A stretch of DNA of 20,091 bases from IMG/VR virus record IMGVR_UViG_3300044522_000743, positions 1 through 20,091 of that record. One strand, 5' to 3'. Within the stretch, counting starts at the first letter, position 1. Each line of letters starts with the position of its first letter. Below the pieces are notes generated by a model. That model was not told the DNA's origin, did not search any database, and saw nothing but the letters and a program-made list of their open reading frames with translations. The position numbers and the translations under genes are program-made. This DNA comes from a virus. Shown here one piece after another: positions 2,325 to 14,113 of this stretch.

Positions 2325-5147
2325 TTAAACTGGCTTGTTCTTGCCAGAACGACGTAACCCTTTTTGGATTTTCACGTCTTGAGGCACAGCCTCTGAGACT
2401 TGAACGCCTTCCGGCAAAACGCCTGCAATCTCGTCTAAAGACGCCGGAGGAACAAAGTTCTGTGCTGGCGTCTCGTTGTATCTGTCAAACGGAGAAACCG
2501 TTCCAGGAAGAGCCATTCCCTGGCTTGCCATGCGGTTATAAGTTGTGCTGGCCAGATTTTGGGCTATCTCGTCGTTAGGGTTGTTTTGAAGTGCTGCCGC
2601 ATGAAAATCAGCACCTTGAGACAACTTGCCTTTGTCGTACATGTCAATCACAGCAGCGATATTCTCTTCGGTGACACCAATGCCTCTGCCCTTGAGATAG
2701 CTTTCGACGGCTTGAATTGGGTCGCCTTGACCGGCCATTTCAAGGATTTGCTCTGGAGTTGTGCCAATCAGATCTTCGGTATCAGACTTGTCTATCCGAA
2801 AGACGTTTGGCTTTCCAGACGTGTCGCCTTCTGGATTCCTGAGGTTGGCAACCTGATCGATCAACTCAGAATGCAGGTCTTGCGAAACAGCGTCGCGCAG
2901 AAGCAGTCTTTGCTGCTCTATGGGCAATAACTTATCGATATACTCCAGACGCTGAGGAGCTTGGGCGAGCAGTTGGTCGCGAATCTTGGCGTACATGTCG
3001 CTTTCCGACTTGTAGACGCTGTTTTCTGCTTCCTGAAGCTGCATTCTTTCGTAAAGCGAGCCGTTCCCTCGTCTTGGGATATCAACACCCTCATGGATAT
3101 CAGCCCCAGCCATGTTGAACTCGCTAGCCTTGGCTGTGTTAAAATCTTTGGCAAGTAAGGCTTGAGACTCCATCGCACCTTTGATCCTGCTCAGAGGGAT
3201 AGCAATCTGGTCGGCGTATTCCTTGTGCAAATCAACGGACTCGGGAGTGCCAAGGATCTTCTTGATTTCTTGGATATCCAGCGGCGTATCTGCACGCACA
3301 ATATCCTTGCTATTGCCGATTCTGATAGGCTCTCCCGCCAAGAACTCGTTTAATCGCTGATCATCTTCAAAGTCGCGAGGCACTTGGGCAAGCCTGTCTT
3401 TTGTCTTTGCGCCCAGGTCTTCAAACGGCGATGGCACTTCGAATTCTCGCAAGCCAAGGCCGCGAATATCTTCGGGCTTGTCCTTGCTGTTGTTTTGCCC
3501 TGTGGCCTTTGCGTAATCTACTGCAATATCACTGGTTACGCCGGTCTTCATCGGGTGCGTGAAAGTGGATTTTGTCGCTCTTGCAACCTGTTGCGGGTCA
3601 AGCTGGTTTCTAAGCCTTTCGGCCAACTCGTCAGCATTTCGTTTGCCAGCTGAGGTTTTGGTGCTAAGAGCCTCTTTCTGGCCTTTCAGATTTGCACTTT
3701 TCGCCGAGATCTTGTTGCCGACAGCATTTAACAGCTTGGTAAGGGCGGGATCTTGCGATTCGGATGCGAGCTTGCCAAAGATGCCGCTCAAGGTGTCTGC
3801 ACCTTCGATCTGAGTGTCACTTTCGCCCTTTGCTGCGCGATACTTTGACTCGTCGATGTATTTCTTCGACTTCGTAGGGTCGAACTGCCCACCCACTTTT
3901 CGCTGTGTCGTATCTCTGGCGGCTTGTCCCAGAGCCTCCATATGCGATCTTAAAGCCAGCTCTTCGTCGCGAGTCAATGGCTTAGACTCCGAGGTGTCCT
4001 CGCGGCCTTCCTTGAGGATGGACGGCAGATCCGTATTAAGCCTTTCCTCGACCATTCGCTTGTGCGGATATTTGACGGGAGCAAACACTTCTTTTAACGG
4101 GTTTTCTTTTGACTGGGGCAGCTCATTTGCAGTTGGCCCAGCAACAACAGCAGCAGCTTCAGGTGGAAGCTCTTGTGTAGGAGGCTTTAATCTACCTTTC
4201 TTACTCTTTTTGGCTGGCACGATTTCTGTTGTAGGACTCGTGCTTTGGCCCTGAGTCGCAAACCCAAGTGCCTTTATCTCAGAGACAATGTCCTGAGGTT
4301 GCTCGCGTGGCATTCTGACCGCAGAACCCGTTTCGGTTGTAGGAGAGACACGAATCTTTGCTCTCCAGCCTTTACCAGCCTGATTCTGCGACGGTACAGG
4401 CCCAAAGGTCGTTCCCGTGTCTGACGGGCCGTTCTTTGGCGGGTCTGGTGGCGACTGGCGACTGGATGCGTCGCTAAATGGATCGCCTTTCCGCTTTTTG
4501 AATCTTGGCCCTGACGGCTTGTCTGGCCCATTGGGCTGCTTGGGAGCAGGGCCAGAGCCATACGGTGGCGGATCTCCAGGCTTGTTCTGGGTGGCTCGCC
4601 AGCCCTTCTGGAGGTCGTTCAGGGCATCAAGGGGAACGTAGTTACGGTGGCTGTCCGTATTGGGGCCGTATCCTTTGCCGATGGTATGACGTGAGCGTGG
4701 GTCAATCAGCGAGCCAGTGAACCTTGGGGACTTGGCTGTCCCCATGGTGCGATCAAGGCCTTCGACGTTGATTCCGTTGTCTTTGAGGTACTTAACCGTG
4801 GCATCCAAGCCGCTATACTGGCCTTGAACTTTGGCTCGCTGCTTGTTTTCAAACGTGCCGAAATCGACTGCCGTGTGATCTTTGATCACGTTGCCGGAGT
4901 GGATGTACTTTGTCTTTCCTGCCGAGTAGTTTGCCACATAGAGGTCGCCGGTGTCCTGATCCGAGATCAGGTCGTACTTGCGAACCTTGCCTTTGGCGTC
5001 CCTGTGACTTCCGACCAGATTGACGTAGCTCTGCTTGCTTTCGCTGTGATTGCGTGGCAAGTCAAAGTTCTCAGTCTTTTTCTTGCCACGCCACGCTTTA
5101 GGAGTGATGCGGCTGAAAGCTCTCGATGCGGCGCGTGCGAAACCCAT
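2325..5147 (-). CDS. Large 940-aa putative internal or accessory virion protein
   Basis: The ATG at 5147 follows an AGGGGTGATC-type Shine-Dalgarno, 9 nt after the stop of the preceding gene. The basic N-terminus (MGFARAASRAF, then RGKKK) leads into a probably folded segment at about 40-185. A Pro/Lys-rich disordered stretch follows (about 188-330). The rest, to 940, is mainly charged, helical and low-complexity, with a basic tail (GLRRSGKNKPV). No signal peptide, membrane segment or enzyme motif is visible. The place between a Pro-rich protein and the scaffold/capsid genes, and its size, suggest an ejected internal virion protein or a large capsid-associated protein. I do not recognise the family. 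Confidence 0.8.
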   Translation of the reverse strand: MGFARAASRAFSRITPKAWRGKKKTENFDLPRNHSESKQSYVNLVGSHRDAKGKVRKYDLISDQDTGDLYVANYSAGKTKYIHSGNVIKDHTAVDFGTFENKQRAKVQGQYSGLDATVKYLKDNGINVEGLDRTMGTAKSPRFTGSLIDPRSRHTIGKGYGPNTDSHRNYVPLDALNDLQKGWRATQNKPGDPPPYGSGPAPKQPNGPDKPSGPRFKKRKGDPFSDASSRQSPPDPPKNGPSDTGTTFGPVPSQNQAGKGWRAKIRVSPTTETGSAVRMPREQPQDIVSEIKALGFATQGQSTSPTTEIVPAKKSKKGRLKPPTQELPPEAAAVVAGPTANELPQSKENPLKEVFAPVKYPHKRMVEERLNTDLPSILKEGREDTSESKPLTRDEELALRSHMEALGQAARDTTQRKVGGQFDPTKSKKYIDESKYRAAKGESDTQIEGADTLSGIFGKLASESQDPALTKLLNAVGNKISAKSANLKGQKEALSTKTSAGKRNADELAERLRNQLDPQQVARATKSTFTHPMKTGVTSDIAVDYAKATGQNNSKDKPEDIRGLGLREFEVPSPFEDLGAKTKDRLAQVPRDFEDDQRLNEFLAGEPIRIGNSKDIVRADTPLDIQEIKKILGTPESVDLHKEYADQIAIPLSRIKGAMESQALLAKDFNTAKASEFNMAGADIHEGVDIPRRGNGSLYERMQLQEAENSVYKSESDMYAKIRDQLLAQAPQRLEYIDKLLPIEQQRLLLRDAVSQDLHSELIDQVANLRNPEGDTSGKPNVFRIDKSDTEDLIGTTPEQILEMAGQGDPIQAVESYLKGRGIGVTEENIAAVIDMYDKGKLSQGADFHAAALQNNPNDEIAQNLASTTYNRMASQGMALPGTVSPFDRYNETPAQNFVPPASLDEIAGVLPEGVQVSEAVPQDVKIQKGLRRSGKNKPV

Positions 5148-8132: not shown

Positions 8133-8317
8133 AGGCCGACCTCCCATTGAACAGATTTGAGCTGCGACTGAATCGACTCTTCACGCTGATTCATGGCCGA
8201 TTTCACGCTGGTCTCGTCGATGCTCACCAGCTCGCCGTTGGCCAGCTTGGAGAGCAGTTCGCGGATCACCTCCACGATAATTGGTGTTAACAGGCGGATG
8301 ATGATCTTGCTGATCAT
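8129..8317 (-). CDS. Small 62-aa protein with hydrophobic/amphipathic N-terminus
   Basis: The start at 8317 overlaps the preceding stop as ATGA, with GGAAG about 9 nt upstream. Residues 1-25 (MISKIIIRLLTPIIVEVIRE...) form a hydrophobic to amphipathic helix that could sit in a membrane. The remainder is polar and helical (about 33-56). It lies in a run of small membrane-type genes and is coupled at both ends, which supports it as real despite its size. A lysis accessory role is possible; no family recognised. Confidence 0.65.
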   Translation of the reverse strand: MISKIIIRLLTPIIVEVIRELLSKLANGELVSIDETSVKSAMNQREESIQSQLKSVQWEVGL

Positions 8318-8547
8318 TTGCTTGCTTCCACTTCATAAATATAAATTGCTTTGGGGCTGAATAAGCCGCGAGGTTTGGCCAAGAGGAATCTTGGTGGTCG
8401 TGGTTTGCCGTTGATGGGACGGGGAGGCAGGAATTGAACCTTGACCTCTTTTTGCTCGACTGTGGTGGTCGTTGTGGTCACTGTCTGTTTTGAACACTGG
8501 CCAGACTGACAGGATTGAGCTGTGTAGATCATGAACTCTGCGAACAA
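8314..8547 (-). CDS. Small 77-aa protein, Thr-rich, unknown
   Basis: The frame ends in an ATGA overlap with the next gene. I prefer the TTG at 8547 because an extended Shine-Dalgarno AAGGTGATCC sits immediately upstream; an internal ATG at 8532 has a poor SD. The protein has a CQSGQC pair at about residues 13-18, a run of six threonines, and a basic Pro-rich C-terminal half (PPRPINGKPRPPRF). No clear signal or membrane segment. It follows the tandem hairpins at 8578-8674, so its expression may be set separately from the genes before it. A 90-aa frame across the same bases was judged a shadow. Confidence 0.55.
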   Translation of the reverse strand: MFAEFMIYTAQSCQSGQCSKQTVTTTTTTVEQKEVKVQFLPPRPINGKPRPPRFLLAKPRGLFSPKAIYIYEVEASK

Positions 8548-8577
8548 GGATCACCTTACCTCTCTTGGGTTTAGGGT

Positions 8578-8674
8578 ATGTTCCCGAAACAGATTTCGGG
8601 AACATCTGTCAACCATTTTGCTGACACCAGCAAAATGGTAACCGTCTCGCCTGTCCTCACGACGGTGAGACGGT
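8578..8674 (-). other. Three tandem hairpins between small genes
   Basis: Hairpin 1 is a perfect 12-bp stem, 8578-8589 with 8594-8605, loop CAGA (ATGTTCCCGAAA / TTTCGGGAACAT). Hairpin 2 is a perfect 12-bp stem, 8612-8623 with 8628-8639, loop ACAC (ACCATTTTGCTG / CAGCAAAATGGT). Hairpin 3 pairs ACCGTCTC 8641-8648 with GAGACGGT 8667-8674, with an alternative inner CTCAC/GTGAG stem. Spacers are 6 and 1 nt. None is followed by a T-run on the coding strand, so these are not standard intrinsic terminators. They may be RNA-processing or stability elements, or protein-binding sites. Confidence 0.75.
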
Positions 8675-8689
8675 AGGCGGGGAGACTGC

Positions 8690-8875
8690 TCACTTCTTCG
8701 GGTCTCTGAGAGACCTGCGATAGGCTGCGATTGCGTAGATGATTGCGGCAGCAGCATACATGGTTTGCGGAATCGAAGGGTCAATTGAACTGCCTTGAAC
8801 CGCTTTATCTGTGACGATTTGGGCTACTGGCACGATCCATCCATAGTCAGGGTTGATAACTTCTTCGATCCGCAT
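8690..8875 (-). CDS. Small 61-aa probable membrane protein
   Basis: ATG at 8875 with AAGGG 8 nt upstream, 4 nt after the stop of the previous gene. Residues about 39-53 (MYAAAAIIYAIAAY) form a short hydrophobic helix followed by a basic tail (RRSLRDPKK), the positive-inside pattern of a single-pass protein with a cytoplasmic C-terminus. A weaker hydrophobic stretch is at 12-21. It sits in a cluster of three small membrane proteins. A holin or holin-like role is possible but no family is recognised. Its stop lies 15 bp from the tandem hairpins. Confidence 0.65.
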   Translation of the reverse strand: MRIEEVINPDYGWIVPVAQIVTDKAVQGSSIDPSIPQTMYAAAAIIYAIAAYRRSLRDPKK

Positions 8876-10145: not shown

Positions 10146-12251
10146 TTATGCGTTGGGGAATGCGGATGTGGGCAAGGCGATCTCACGGGCTATGCCTTTA
10201 GTTGTTCGGAAGTCGTCAATATTTCCGTTGAATGCTAGGACGGTCGCCATGTATCCCACGACAAGAGTGCCTGTGGAAGAAAAATCATTGACCCAATTGG
10301 AACCAGATGAAGTTACTGCCTGCAATACACCATTGACACCAAGTTTAATTGTTGATCCGCTGCTGCGTGTTGCCTGTAGGAAATACCAAGTGTTTAGAGA
10401 TGGAGTCCAATTTGTATAAGCAAATACAGAGGCGTTTCCGTGTCGGCCAAGTCGCAGGCGTTTTGTTCCGGCAGAATCTTCAAGGCCAAACCACCAGTGC
10501 GTAAAACCCGCAGACGTAGTTGATGTCATCGTGTTAGCGATGCCCATGATAGTATTGGTTGTCGGGAGTGCCGAAAAGTTAACCCAGCATTCGATTGTGA
10601 AATCTCCAAGCCCAAACGCAATTGAAGCATGGCTTGCAACTGTTAAATAGTCCCCAGTTCCATCAAAATACGCAGATGCTCCACCAAACTGGCTTTGAGT
10701 CGTGCTGATTTGAGCGTTGCCGACTGGAGTCACTGCCAGTGCATTTGCCGAATTATCTGTAAATATCGTGCTTCCGTTTGCCCCATCCATGTGCAGGAGC
10801 AGAGAGACGTTGCTGAAATAGCGGTCATTTCCGGTGGCGAATTCTGGTAGTGCCGCAGCGGGTGGCGTGAATACTGATGTGTATCGGGCGTATTTGGTGA
10901 TGCGGAGGTCGTCCATATAACCGTTGTAAGTGAAAACACTTGATTGAGTGTCTACAAACCCGCTGATTCGCATTGCATTGTCAGTTAGATTGGTTGAAGA
11001 AGTAACGCTTGTTTGCGAGACTCCATCCACGTAAAGCGTAACCGTTGTACCGTTTCTGACTAATGCAACGTGCTGCCACTGATTGGCAACTCGCCCTGTT
11101 GTAGTTGATAAAATTGTGGCATTATTTAGATAAACCAGAAACCCGCCATCGTTTTCGCGAAGCATAAGACCGTTTGTGCCTGTTGCCGCCGTCCTGAAGT
11201 CGATCATTCCTCGCAGGCTTGATCCAGATGTGAGGGAATAAAACCACCCTTCAATTGTGTAATTGCCTGTGCCGAGCGCGAACACAGAATTGGCGGGAAT
11301 TGTTAATGAGTCTCCAGTACCGTCAAAGTATCCTGATGCAGCACCGAACTTGCTTTGGGTCGTTGATATTTGGGCATTAGCAGCAGCAGTCACCGTCAAA
11401 GCCGATGGCCCAGCATCCACAAAGTTCGTCGATGCGTTCGTGCCATCCATGTGCAGCAGGAGCGATGTGTAATTGTAGTAAGGGTCGGCCACCGTGGATG
11501 ATGCGGTTGTTGGCAATGCTGCTGTGGGAGGCGTGAAATTGGAGACGTAGCGAGCAAATCGGGAAATCCTGAGGTCGTCGAGGTAGCCGTTTAATGGAAA
11601 GACGTTGCTATCTTTCTCTGCACCAATCTTCAGCGGCTTGCTGTTATTGTACAGCGTTGAACTAAATGTTGCTGTTGTACCAGCGATGCCGTTTAAATAT
11701 GGAGTAAATGTGCTGCCATTCCGAACTAGGGCAAAATGATACCATGTTCCGGTAGCAGCGGCAGTAGCAGAAAACAGTACGTTGCTGGGTCCGTTCCACG
11801 TATTCGCGGCTGTGCTTAAGTAGAATGCAAACTGCGAGCTACTGTTAAGAACGATTACCCATCCGCCAAAAGTGTTTCCCGTGCCAAATGGAGTGACAAT
11901 GGTCGGGGTTCCAGAGACTGAGTTAAAATACACCCATCCCTCGATTGTGAAATCGCCAGACGTAAGGTCAAGTGCAGCGGAATATGGGATCTGGACAGCA
12001 TCCCCGCTACCATCGAAATACGCGCTCGCTCCACCGTACTTGCTCTGGGTTGTGGATATTTGGGCGTTACCAACTGGAGTCACTGCAATTGCATTTAAAC
12101 TGCTATCGGTAAACGTGGTCGATCCATTCGTACCGTCCATACTGAGCATCAGCGAAACGGCTGAATAGTAAGGGTCGCCACCATCTATGACGATACCTCC
12201 ACCACCACCGATACCAGTCTTTTTACGATTGCGGATAATGTTGGCTAACAT
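10146..12251 (-). CDS. Protein with three LamG/concanavalin-like repeats (host adhesion)
   Basis: I chose ATG at 12251, which overlaps the tail-fibre stop as TGATG with GGAGG 11 nt upstream; the longer reading from 12284 lies inside the fibre gene. The 701-aa product has a basic start (IIRNRKK), a Gly run (15-19), then three homologous jelly-roll units at about 27-249, 256-469 and 477-698. Each has LLHMDG-type, NAQISTTQS, YFDG[ST]GD, FTIE[GC]W, a Trp-x-x-x-A-hydrophobic-x-RN/S strand, and DDLR-type motifs. LamG-like folds bind glycans or glycoproteins. Coupling to the tail fibre suggests a virion adhesin for host-surface sugars. No catalytic residues of a glycosidase were recognised. Confidence 0.88.
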   Translation of the reverse strand: MLANIIRNRKKTGIGGGGGIVIDGGDPYYSAVSLMLSMDGTNGSTTFTDSSLNAIAVTPVGNAQISTTQSKYGGASAYFDGSGDAVQIPYSAALDLTSGDFTIEGWVYFNSVSGTPTIVTPFGTGNTFGGWVIVLNSSSQFAFYLSTAANTWNGPSNVLFSATAAATGTWYHFALVRNGSTFTPYLNGIAGTTATFSSTLYNNSKPLKIGAEKDSNVFPLNGYLDDLRISRFARYVSNFTPPTAALPTTASSTVADPYYNYTSLLLHMDGTNASTNFVDAGPSALTVTAAANAQISTTQSKFGAASGYFDGTGDSLTIPANSVFALGTGNYTIEGWFYSLTSGSSLRGMIDFRTAATGTNGLMLRENDGGFLVYLNNATILSTTTGRVANQWQHVALVRNGTTVTLYVDGVSQTSVTSSTNLTDNAMRISGFVDTQSSVFTYNGYMDDLRITKYARYTSVFTPPAAALPEFATGNDRYFSNVSLLLHMDGANGSTIFTDNSANALAVTPVGNAQISTTQSQFGGASAYFDGTGDYLTVASHASIAFGLGDFTIECWVNFSALPTTNTIMGIANTMTSTTSAGFTHWWFGLEDSAGTKRLRLGRHGNASVFAYTNWTPSLNTWYFLQATRSSGSTIKLGVNGVLQAVTSSGSNWVNDFSSTGTLVVGYMATVLAFNGNIDDFRTTKGIAREIALPTSAFPNA
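10158..12173 (-). repeat. Three diverged copies of a ~220-residue LamG-like unit
   Basis: Approximate limits in DNA are 12173-11505, 11486-10845 and 10823-10158. Shared coding segments include GNAQISTTQS (AANAQISTTQS in copy 2), YFDG[ST]GD and LLHMDG. Copies 1 and 3 are more alike at the start (AVTPVGNAQISTTQS in both) than either is to copy 2 (VTAAANAQISTTQS). This indicates duplication within the gene followed by divergence, or gene conversion between units. Confidence 0.8.
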
Positions 12252-14113
12252 CAGAAGTTTTGACCTCCAATGTAACCTTGCCAAGTCGTTCCACCATCAG
12301 AGGTAAAGAATGCGAACGAATCCACCTTGCCTATCGCAGATGTAATCGTTGGCGGAGTTCCACCAGCCCATTTAATTGACGTGGGCCAACTAACTGACCT
12401 TGGTATCCCGTCAGCAGTGAATATCAGCGTAAATGAAGCACCGGAACCGCTTGCAGGAACGTTTGTTATAGATATGGGCGTGGTGATGGCTGCGTTGAGG
12501 CTGACCGTGAAGATGTTCGATGTTTCGAGATTTAATGTCAGCGTGCCGGATGAAATCGTTGGGCTGGAGACAGATTCGCTGTAATCACGAAGTTTGGCCC
12601 TGAACAGCTCGTTATCCTGTAGATTCTGCGCCCCTGTAAAGGCGTTTGCACCAGCAGTGATGTAACCGGAGGGGTTGCTTGTGCTGTAGCCGTCGGTAAT
12701 TCCGTAGCCTGACAGCGTGGTTGGCTTGCCTGTGATGTTCGCAAACGTCAGGCAGGATGTCGTGGCATAGTTGCCCAGCGGTTGATAAGTTGCCGTGGCA
12801 TTGGCTGTGGTCAGATAGACCGTCAGGTTTGGCGTGCCTGTAATATTCGCATACGTGAAATTTGCCGATGGGAGCTTGGCGTCCAGTGCGGTTTGCAAGC
12901 CTGTCACGTTCGCGATGCTGTGCGTGTGGCCCAAGACTGCGTAGGTTGCGTTGGCACTGGATATGGTCAGGTAGGGAGTCAGGTTGGCCGAGGTTAAACC
13001 GTCAGTGATGCCATATCCAGCGAGCGTTGTGGGCGTGCCTGTCAGGTTGGCAAAGGTCAGGTTTGCGGATGTGAGATAACTGCCAATTGCAGCATAGCGA
13101 CTGTCCGCATAGCCTTGAGTTAGGATTGAATAATCGGTCATAATGGGAGTACGAAGTAAAGTCCGATTAGCGTTTTGGAACACGAGTTCCGCTGACTCTC
13201 CTATTTTCAAAGTAGTTTTATAGTCATAGGCATGGTCAAACGCTAAAGATGGATCTACGGCGGTTAAATCGTTTGTTGCAGTAAGGTATATCTGGCTAGG
13301 TCGCCCAAAAGCAGTACCGTTGCTATATCTTGAAATTTGCGAAATCGAAAATAGGTCTATCTCTGCTACAACACCGCCAGATACTTTATCCGCATTGGTG
13401 TTTGGGGCGTAAGCGCCGGCAGTTCCTACAGCATATCGAGCATGAATGCCGCCGTTAATTGCGTGAGGATCATATACCTGTGTAGTCCCCGACGGTCGCT
13501 GTGTGGCCTGCACATCAAAAGTAGCAGTGGTAAGGGTGTTGGCATTGACCTTAGTAGACGATTCAAGATACACCTCGCCATACTGGCCAAGCAGCAATCG
13601 TCCTGTCTTTGAGGTGTTTGCAGTACCTGTGTCGTTGGCGTTAAACCCAATAGACTTATACTGTAGAATTGTAGAACCGGACGACGAATATAAGCTACCG
13701 TCAAATATAGTCTTTGTAACCGTACCCGATGTGTTACTTGTCAATATCCCACGGGAATAGCCCTGAATGGGGCCACTGGCCGATGTAATGGAACTGTATT
13801 TTGGGAATTGAGATAACGTGCCTGCGGTGGTCTGCGTATCTTTCCAGACCTGAATATAATTGGCGTCTACAATGGTCGTGACATCGTTTGCAGTCAGCGA
13901 AACATTCCCCGTACGATTATTGAACGCCGTAACACCACCCGGCTGGGCCGACAGCACCCCATTGCCCGTGATCGACAGATTATCCCCAACGATGATTCCA
14001 CCGAGCGTGGCGTTTGTGGCTGGAACCAGCGTCGTGCCTGTGATTGTTACTGGGGCAGGGTTTACAGCTACTTTTTCGGCGACGTTTTGCTTGACTACGA
14101 TGATGTCAGCCAC
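12251..14113 (-). CDS. Tail-fibre protein with fibre repeats
   Basis: GTG at 14113 is chosen: GGAGG lies 9 nt upstream and the start overlaps the preceding stop (GTGGCTGA). The earlier ATG at 14170 lies inside the neighbour. The 620-aa product has an N-terminal part with LGGIIVGDNLSITGNGVLSA and VTAFNNRTGNVSLTANDV, a pattern common in phage fibre proteins. The middle is beta-rich (90-330). Collagen-free fibre repeats follow at 349-476 (LTGTPTTLAGYGITDG twice, and NVTGLQTALDAKLP). The C-terminal beta domain (510-620) ends in GGTTWQGYIGGQNF. It should be a trimeric receptor-binding or fibre-shaft component. No intramolecular chaperone is seen. Confidence 0.88.
   Translation of the reverse strand: MADIIVVKQNVAEKVAVNPAPVTITGTTLVPATNATLGGIIVGDNLSITGNGVLSAQPGGVTAFNNRTGNVSLTANDVTTIVDANYIQVWKDTQTTAGTLSQFPKYSSITSASGPIQGYSRGILTSNTSGTVTKTIFDGSLYSSSGSTILQYKSIGFNANDTGTANTSKTGRLLLGQYGEVYLESSTKVNANTLTTATFDVQATQRPSGTTQVYDPHAINGGIHARYAVGTAGAYAPNTNADKVSGGVVAEIDLFSISQISRYSNGTAFGRPSQIYLTATNDLTAVDPSLAFDHAYDYKTTLKIGESAELVFQNANRTLLRTPIMTDYSILTQGYADSRYAAIGSYLTSANLTFANLTGTPTTLAGYGITDGLTSANLTPYLTISSANATYAVLGHTHSIANVTGLQTALDAKLPSANFTYANITGTPNLTVYLTTANATATYQPLGNYATTSCLTFANITGKPTTLSGYGITDGYSTSNPSGYITAGANAFTGAQNLQDNELFRAKLRDYSESVSSPTISSGTLTLNLETSNIFTVSLNAAITTPISITNVPASGSGASFTLIFTADGIPRSVSWPTSIKWAGGTPPTITSAIGKVDSFAFFTSDGGTTWQGYIGGQNF
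12686..13069 (-). repeat. Tail-fibre repeats (GxPTTLxGYGITDG type)
   Basis: Two clear copies lie at 12998-13069 and 12686-12754, encoding residues 349-372 and 454-476. They share LTFAN[LI]TG[TK]PTTL[AS]GYGITDG, with two partial units between them (NFTYANITGTPNL and related YLTxxNAT segments). These match the repeat seen in many phage tail fibres. Recombination between such copies is a known route to fibre length change; that is background, not seen here. Confidence 0.75.

Follow-up and report, generated by a model that had tools for sequence, protein, structure and literature searches.

Two adjacent hairpins in a non-coding gap of a phage genome, termed B and C, match palindromic elements found in and upstream of two families of host regulator genes, dinD and PDC-M59A. 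The identity of these two elements is well supported by the sequence comparisons described here. We tentatively propose that the hairpins are copies, carried by the phage, of palindromic control elements from these two regulator families and that they may act as decoys. The window, meaning the whole stretch of DNA that was analyzed, is a 20,091-base IMG/VR virus record in which genes for a portal, a large terminase and a major head protein, as well as all genes around the hairpin cluster, are on the minus strand.

The hairpins lie in a 142-nt non-coding gap on the minus strand (8548 to 8689). Hairpin C (8578 to 8605) has the form ATGTTCCCGAAA-N4-TTTCGGGAACAT and hairpin B (8612 to 8639) the form ACCATTTTGCTG-N4-CAGCAAAATGGT, each with a perfect 12-bp stem and a 4-nt loop. 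Hairpin A (8641 to 8674) has an 8-bp stem (ACCGTCTC/GAGACGGT), with inner pairs broken by mismatches, and is clade specific. C and B are separated by 6 nt and B and A by 1 nt; these exact coordinates confirmed the three stems reported at 8578 to 8674 in an earlier note on this DNA. The upstream flanking gene (8690 to 8875, minus strand, with its stop at 8690) encodes a small membrane-type protein of 61 aa, which is kept in relatives and had no match in PHROGs. The downstream flanking gene (8314 to 8547, minus strand) encodes 77 aa and has a TTG start at 8547, which aligns with the ATG of relatives L042 and L049. On the transcribed (minus) strand, the loop of C is TCTG, the complement of CAGA, the commonest loop in the gene-borne copies; C is antisense oriented and B, whose inner stem is GC/GC, is sense oriented.

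B and C were the strongest short-loop hairpins of the window. No 12-bp stem was present in 30 simulated sequences of equal dinucleotide make-up, and 11-bp stems occurred at a mean of 0.1. The folding z-scores of the cluster were -7.0 (plus strand) and -5.8 (minus strand), and 0 of 200 shuffles folded as well. The stem cluster is far beyond chance, as the earlier note had supposed for perfect 12-bp stems with tetraloops. That note had also argued against a standard terminator, and an intrinsic (Rho-independent) terminator was ruled out by the absence of a T-run 3' of any stem on the minus strand and by a terminator scan of the window, which reported nothing at the cluster. Searches with Rfam covariance models at the gathering score gave no match in the window, ruling out an Rfam RNA family, and no tRNA was found. 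No promoter-like or terminator-like site was reported at 8540 to 8700, the promoter part of this result being weak. Repeats of the cluster were absent from the rest of the window record, and no near DNA relatives of the 1-kb region were found among phage isolates.

The same site was compared in 44 loci that were found via the nearby peptidase gene, independently of the hairpins. Compensatory base changes, for which the earlier note had proposed such an alignment, were detected in both B and C. The inner stem of B was GC/GC, CC/GG or CG/CG, with both sides changing together, and C of locus L018 had a T-A to C-G exchange; single mismatches in the stems were few. These two-sided changes in the aligned sequences indicate that the stems are under selection. 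Relatives also gained or lost whole stems within the gap: the hairpins were entirely absent from L049, A occurred alone in L037, L041, L044 and L045, A and B were present in L016, L032 and L043, most relatives had all three, and a more distant relative, L143, had C alone. The step from A only to A plus B consisted in the insertion of a bare 28-bp unit, with no duplication of the target. A scan for hairpin A returned 36 viral stretches, all on contigs already known from the phage group of the window, which ruled out A as a widespread element; that A derives from a third regulator family would be a guess. A phage-encoded Bro-N partner was absent from 12 of the 13 related records checked. The exception, G534 (locus L049, also L394), lacks the hairpins at this site and is the only Bro-N encoder of the 13, and no dinD-type palindrome was seen around its Bro-N gene.

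A scan of 84,980 bacterial and archaeal genomes detected C in 43 contigs spanning many phyla. Forty of these 43 copies were located at a PDC-M59A gene, either in frame (in intact, truncated or decayed genes) or, in a single case, 60 nt ahead of its start codon. All 16 genomes checked for copy number had one copy each; this result, together with the single cluster in the window record, ruled out a dispersed host repeat of the REP/BIME or MITE type. The product of the C-bearing gene, of about 341 aa, matched PADLOC PDC-M59A at E=1.8e-104, a label that makes it a candidate anti-phage gene, and the palindrome encodes DVPETDFGNI. A sub-threshold match to ORF6N was present at the N terminus of 16 of 21 members. 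In an AlphaFold model of low confidence (pLDDT 61), the palindrome residues (93 to 102) were located in a loop following a better-predicted N-terminal domain. A fold search of the PDB with this model found nothing at E<=0.001 and a sequence search detected no significant solved structure; a weak match to DdrC was dropped as the fold search was not significant. The PDC-M59A gene belongs to type III restriction loci, where it is flanked by mod and Doc toxin/res, and the order in Ilyobacter is mod, res, PDC-M59A and then Doc. A Doc toxin gene also follows PDC-M59A in the type III restriction-modification loci L311 (173 to 6676), L315 (49 to 3437) and L341 (895 to 7450). Truncated or decayed copies of PDC-M59A in Chlorobiaceae (L280, L301, L357, L358 and L367) kept a perfect palindrome with the reading frame broken nearby.

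Hairpin B was found inside dinD in several viral contigs, where it encodes DHFxxVxKMV (also given as D-H-F-x-D-V-x-K-M-V). The products of these genes matched NCBIfam DinD (NF008573) and contained a Bro-N domain (PF02498). DinD also matched a type I specificity subunit and PADLOC PDC-S13, the label by which it is a candidate anti-phage gene. Among annotated phages, B-type palindromes were present in the dinD genes of streptococcal satellites and of an Akkermansia phage. The DinD/Bro-N family, from which palindrome B would derive, comprises regulators that bind DNA and are common among phages, satellites and bacteria.

Homologues of PDC-M59A and dinD were then collected by protein searches that were blind to the palindrome. 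In PDC-M59A homologues, a palindrome was mostly present at the same codon position with a differing sequence. One variant, GTTCACG/CGTGAAC, had P-to-H and G-to-V replacements that occurred together, and another, CATGGTACCGAAA/TTTCGGTACCATG, formed a 23-bp perfect stem in L347, a Chlorobiaceae genome in which the palindrome lies inside the coding sequence at codon region +266. Further alleles were of GGTACC types or had the sequence ATGTCGACGACA/TGTCGTCGACAT. The dinD alleles included GTTG/CAAC (with loops AAAC or AGTC), TTCC/GGAA and ATCACTTTCCC/GGGAAAGTGAT, and Zymomonas dinD had a different palindrome slightly further on. The palindromes of both families thus stay symmetric while their sequence changes, even at an amino-acid cost. 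Selection on the nucleic acid was assessed by redrawing synonymous codons from each gene's own usage and counting hairpins as good as the real one. A P value of <=0.01 was obtained for 9 of 14 PDC-M59A and 6 of 14 dinD genes, in which the sequences differ between subgroups, the homologues being related and so not independent trials. The remaining 5 PDC-M59A and 8 dinD genes missed this threshold, and some of them carry imperfect or upstream palindromes.

Palindromes were also detected upstream of these genes. Thiothrix dinD has no in-gene palindrome and has B types at -60 and -55. Bernardetia dinD has copies at -449, at -169 and in the gene, all with the inner stem TTCC/GGAA, and the Streptococcus satellite Javan302 carries one B-type element upstream of dinD and another inside it. 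In L303, C is located at -60 of PDC-M59A and the in-gene palindrome differs from it. The site in both families was therefore linked to its own gene and was under selection at the nucleic-acid level, and the combination of upstream and in-gene positions is as expected of a site through which a product acts on its own gene. These patterns suggest that the palindromes are self-associated and probably autoregulatory sites of host defense regulators. A comparable arrangement has been described for RptR, an autoregulated repressor of a type I restriction island, which has palindromic sites with three 6-bp motifs, in the promoter only, about 58 to 31 bp upstream of its own start codon (PMC12255303). 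The sites found here similarly span about -60 to -33 of defense-linked, putative DNA-binding regulators. They differ from those of RptR in being mostly 24 to 50 bp long, in occurring also inside coding sequence, in being variable between alleles and in being copied by phages.

To look for copies in viruses, 2.9 million viral contigs were scanned for the C stem, the loop being left free. The stem was present in 116 viral stretches, compared with 0 for a control palindrome with shuffled arms of equal composition. The flanks of these copies were mostly unrelated outside the phage clade of the window, and the stems usually extended beyond the searched letters, to ATG...CAT. The B stem was found in at least 119 viral stretches, with many unrelated flanks. 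The 4-nt loops varied almost freely. Outside this phage group, and among the matches listed, 23 of 49 distinct contexts of C and 40 of 78 of B were intergenic when open reading frames were called crudely, with about 10% of these contigs left non-coding. Free-standing B-type palindromes also occurred in annotated phages of Flavobacterium, Fusobacterium and Streptococcus. In the streptococcal prophages EJ-1 (L386), Javan316 (L403) and phiARI0468-1 (L404), dinD-type palindromes were located in non-coding DNA immediately behind the lysin gene. DinD itself is encoded by streptococcal satellite phages, which, with the palindromes of the prophages, raises a possible helper-satellite link.

B- and C-type elements were found within 300 nt of each other in three loci outside the clade (L095, L136 and L211), whereas three control arms gave 0 such loci. 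By blastn, L136, L095 and the window had nothing but the hairpins in common. L136, a 4.3-kb virus fragment, contains two arrays of C-type and B-type elements, at 2815 to 2920 and 3230 to 3420, and one of these holds both the CCC/GGG and the CAC/GTG alleles of C, the PDC-M59A palindrome; the CAC allele was also free-standing in further viruses. In Desulfoluna (L297, 3080 to 3210), a bacterial intergenic region close to a MerR-type gene also has a B-type and a C-type element, with about 60 nt between them.

The elements thus occur in phages, match a host defense-locus element and lie outside the phage's own genes. Our preferred, still tentative, explanation is that B and C are copies of host control elements that serve as decoys. 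Each regulator would bind the palindrome, putatively as double-stranded DNA, and would control its own expression through the copy in its gene and/or the one about 60 nt upstream of the start. The phage has its free-standing copies next to each other in non-coding DNA of the late region. Once infection is under way, phage DNA (or transcript) in high copy number would present these sites and could draw the regulator off its own locus or target, the phage gaining by titration. There is a precedent for phage copies of a short host-defense nucleic-acid element in the pseudo-ToxI repeats of phage PhiTE and the CRISPR-repeat mimics (Racr), which act as RNA on known systems. As in those cases, the phage of the window carries an element of a host defense locus outside its own genes; unlike them, the palindrome here comes from regulator genes, its binder is putative and an array holds several different elements. 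Against decoy action, the phage could be harmed if the titrated regulator represses toxin or restriction genes, and an orientation bias among free-standing copies is not expected of a symmetric DNA site. This bias was determined relative to co-directional flanking genes, with 23 copies presenting the antisense and 9 the sense loop (P = 0.02), and is itself weak.

The same bias would favor a reading in which the elements act as RNA, with a control hairpin in the regulator mRNA and phage transcripts that pair with this mRNA or soak up an RNA-binding partner. Stable hairpins form on both strands, and the in-gene and -60 positions would both be transcribed. Stem mismatches in the genes, however, were not mainly G-U, as A-C was about as common among the few cases, and the near-free variation of the loops and the opposite orientations of C and B in the window are also at odds with an RNA mode of action, which we consider unlikely.

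A lower probability was assigned to selfish mobile palindromes that insert without a function for their carrier, in the manner of Rickettsia palindromic elements (RPE). RPEs are dispersed, multicopy elements that occur in frame in many protein genes and in non-coding DNA. Palindromes B and C resemble them in being in frame in dinD and PDC-M59A and also present between genes, with many unrelated flanks, and the bare 28-bp insertion that separates A-only from A-plus-B relatives would fit such mobility. They differ in that RPEs are longer and in that the palindromes are not spread over many unrelated genes, C being single copy per genome and at PDC-M59A in nearly all of its bacterial contigs. Other features likewise make selfish insertion rather improbable: the codon position is fixed in both gene families, the palindrome at that position has evolved into different ones through compensatory changes, copies occur at -60 of the same genes and no mobilizing gene was seen.

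The earlier note had offered a binding site for a regulatory protein as one role of the stems, and this suggestion stands in putative form, as the stems match two regulator genes. Its proposals of a stability cap or an RNase III site gained no support. A local phage RNA function of this kind, whether in capping, in processing or in weak termination between late genes, is suggested by the position between co-directional late genes, the strong folding without coding overlap and the streptococcal prophages with B-type palindromes just after lysin. It is very unlikely, in that unrelated viruses share the sequence as well as the structure, the stems lack a T-run and are also found in the coding sequence of bacteria and in front of regulator genes, and relatives manage without one, two or all of them. 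Nothing pointed to a role tied to the holin/peptidase neighborhood, in which the note had placed the stability cap: the same 28-bp stems are found next to unrelated genes in viruses that are themselves unrelated and in two bacterial regulator genes, and it is from those genes, not from this neighborhood, that they take their identity. The PeSLs of T4-type phages are stem-loop cassettes with an early promoter and a terminator (Arbiol 2010, Comeau 2014, cited in PMC4503421). The hairpins resemble PeSLs as small stem-loop modules that are gained and lost between phage genes, but no promoter or terminator was seen at the window cluster, and PeSLs are not known to match host genes.

Equally doubtful are phage operators that would deliberately place late genes under DinD-like (SOS-linked) or PDC-M59A control. 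In favor of such operators, sites precede terS in Flavobacterium phage Fpv5 and the 77-aa gene of the window, and others are found in temperate streptococcal phages. On the other side, several sites are downstream of genes or near attachment sites, the window cluster has no reported promoter-like site and mixed arrays of B and C are better explained by a sink than by one switch.

A broader version of the proposal that phage copies act as decoys is conceivable, if on the doubtful side: Bro-N/ORF6N defense regulators across phyla would hold an allele-specific recognition palindrome in their coding sequence, gene, surface loop and target would change together, and phages would array copies as decoys. 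If so, an arms race would be fought with 28-bp palindromes. Decoy action would mean that phages can counter defense with bare palindromic DNA or RNA and no protein. The matches link an unexplained non-coding structure of phages to two widespread, poorly understood families of candidate defense regulators, and the palindrome and its alleles provide a sequence handle for what DinD and PDC-M59A may recognize. In a literature search of partial coverage, no description of the stem sequence, of PDC-M59, of PDC-S13 or of intragenic palindromes was found, nor any paper on a palindrome conserved within dinD or in its upstream region, and novelty is accordingly provisional. A palindrome that stays symmetric inside a gene despite changing sequence and peptide would be an unusual coding constraint in its own right. 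Elsewhere in the window, positions 10146 to 12284 encode a protein of 712 aa, probably a tail or adhesion protein, in which a concanavalin/LamG-like repeat occurs in three similar copies.
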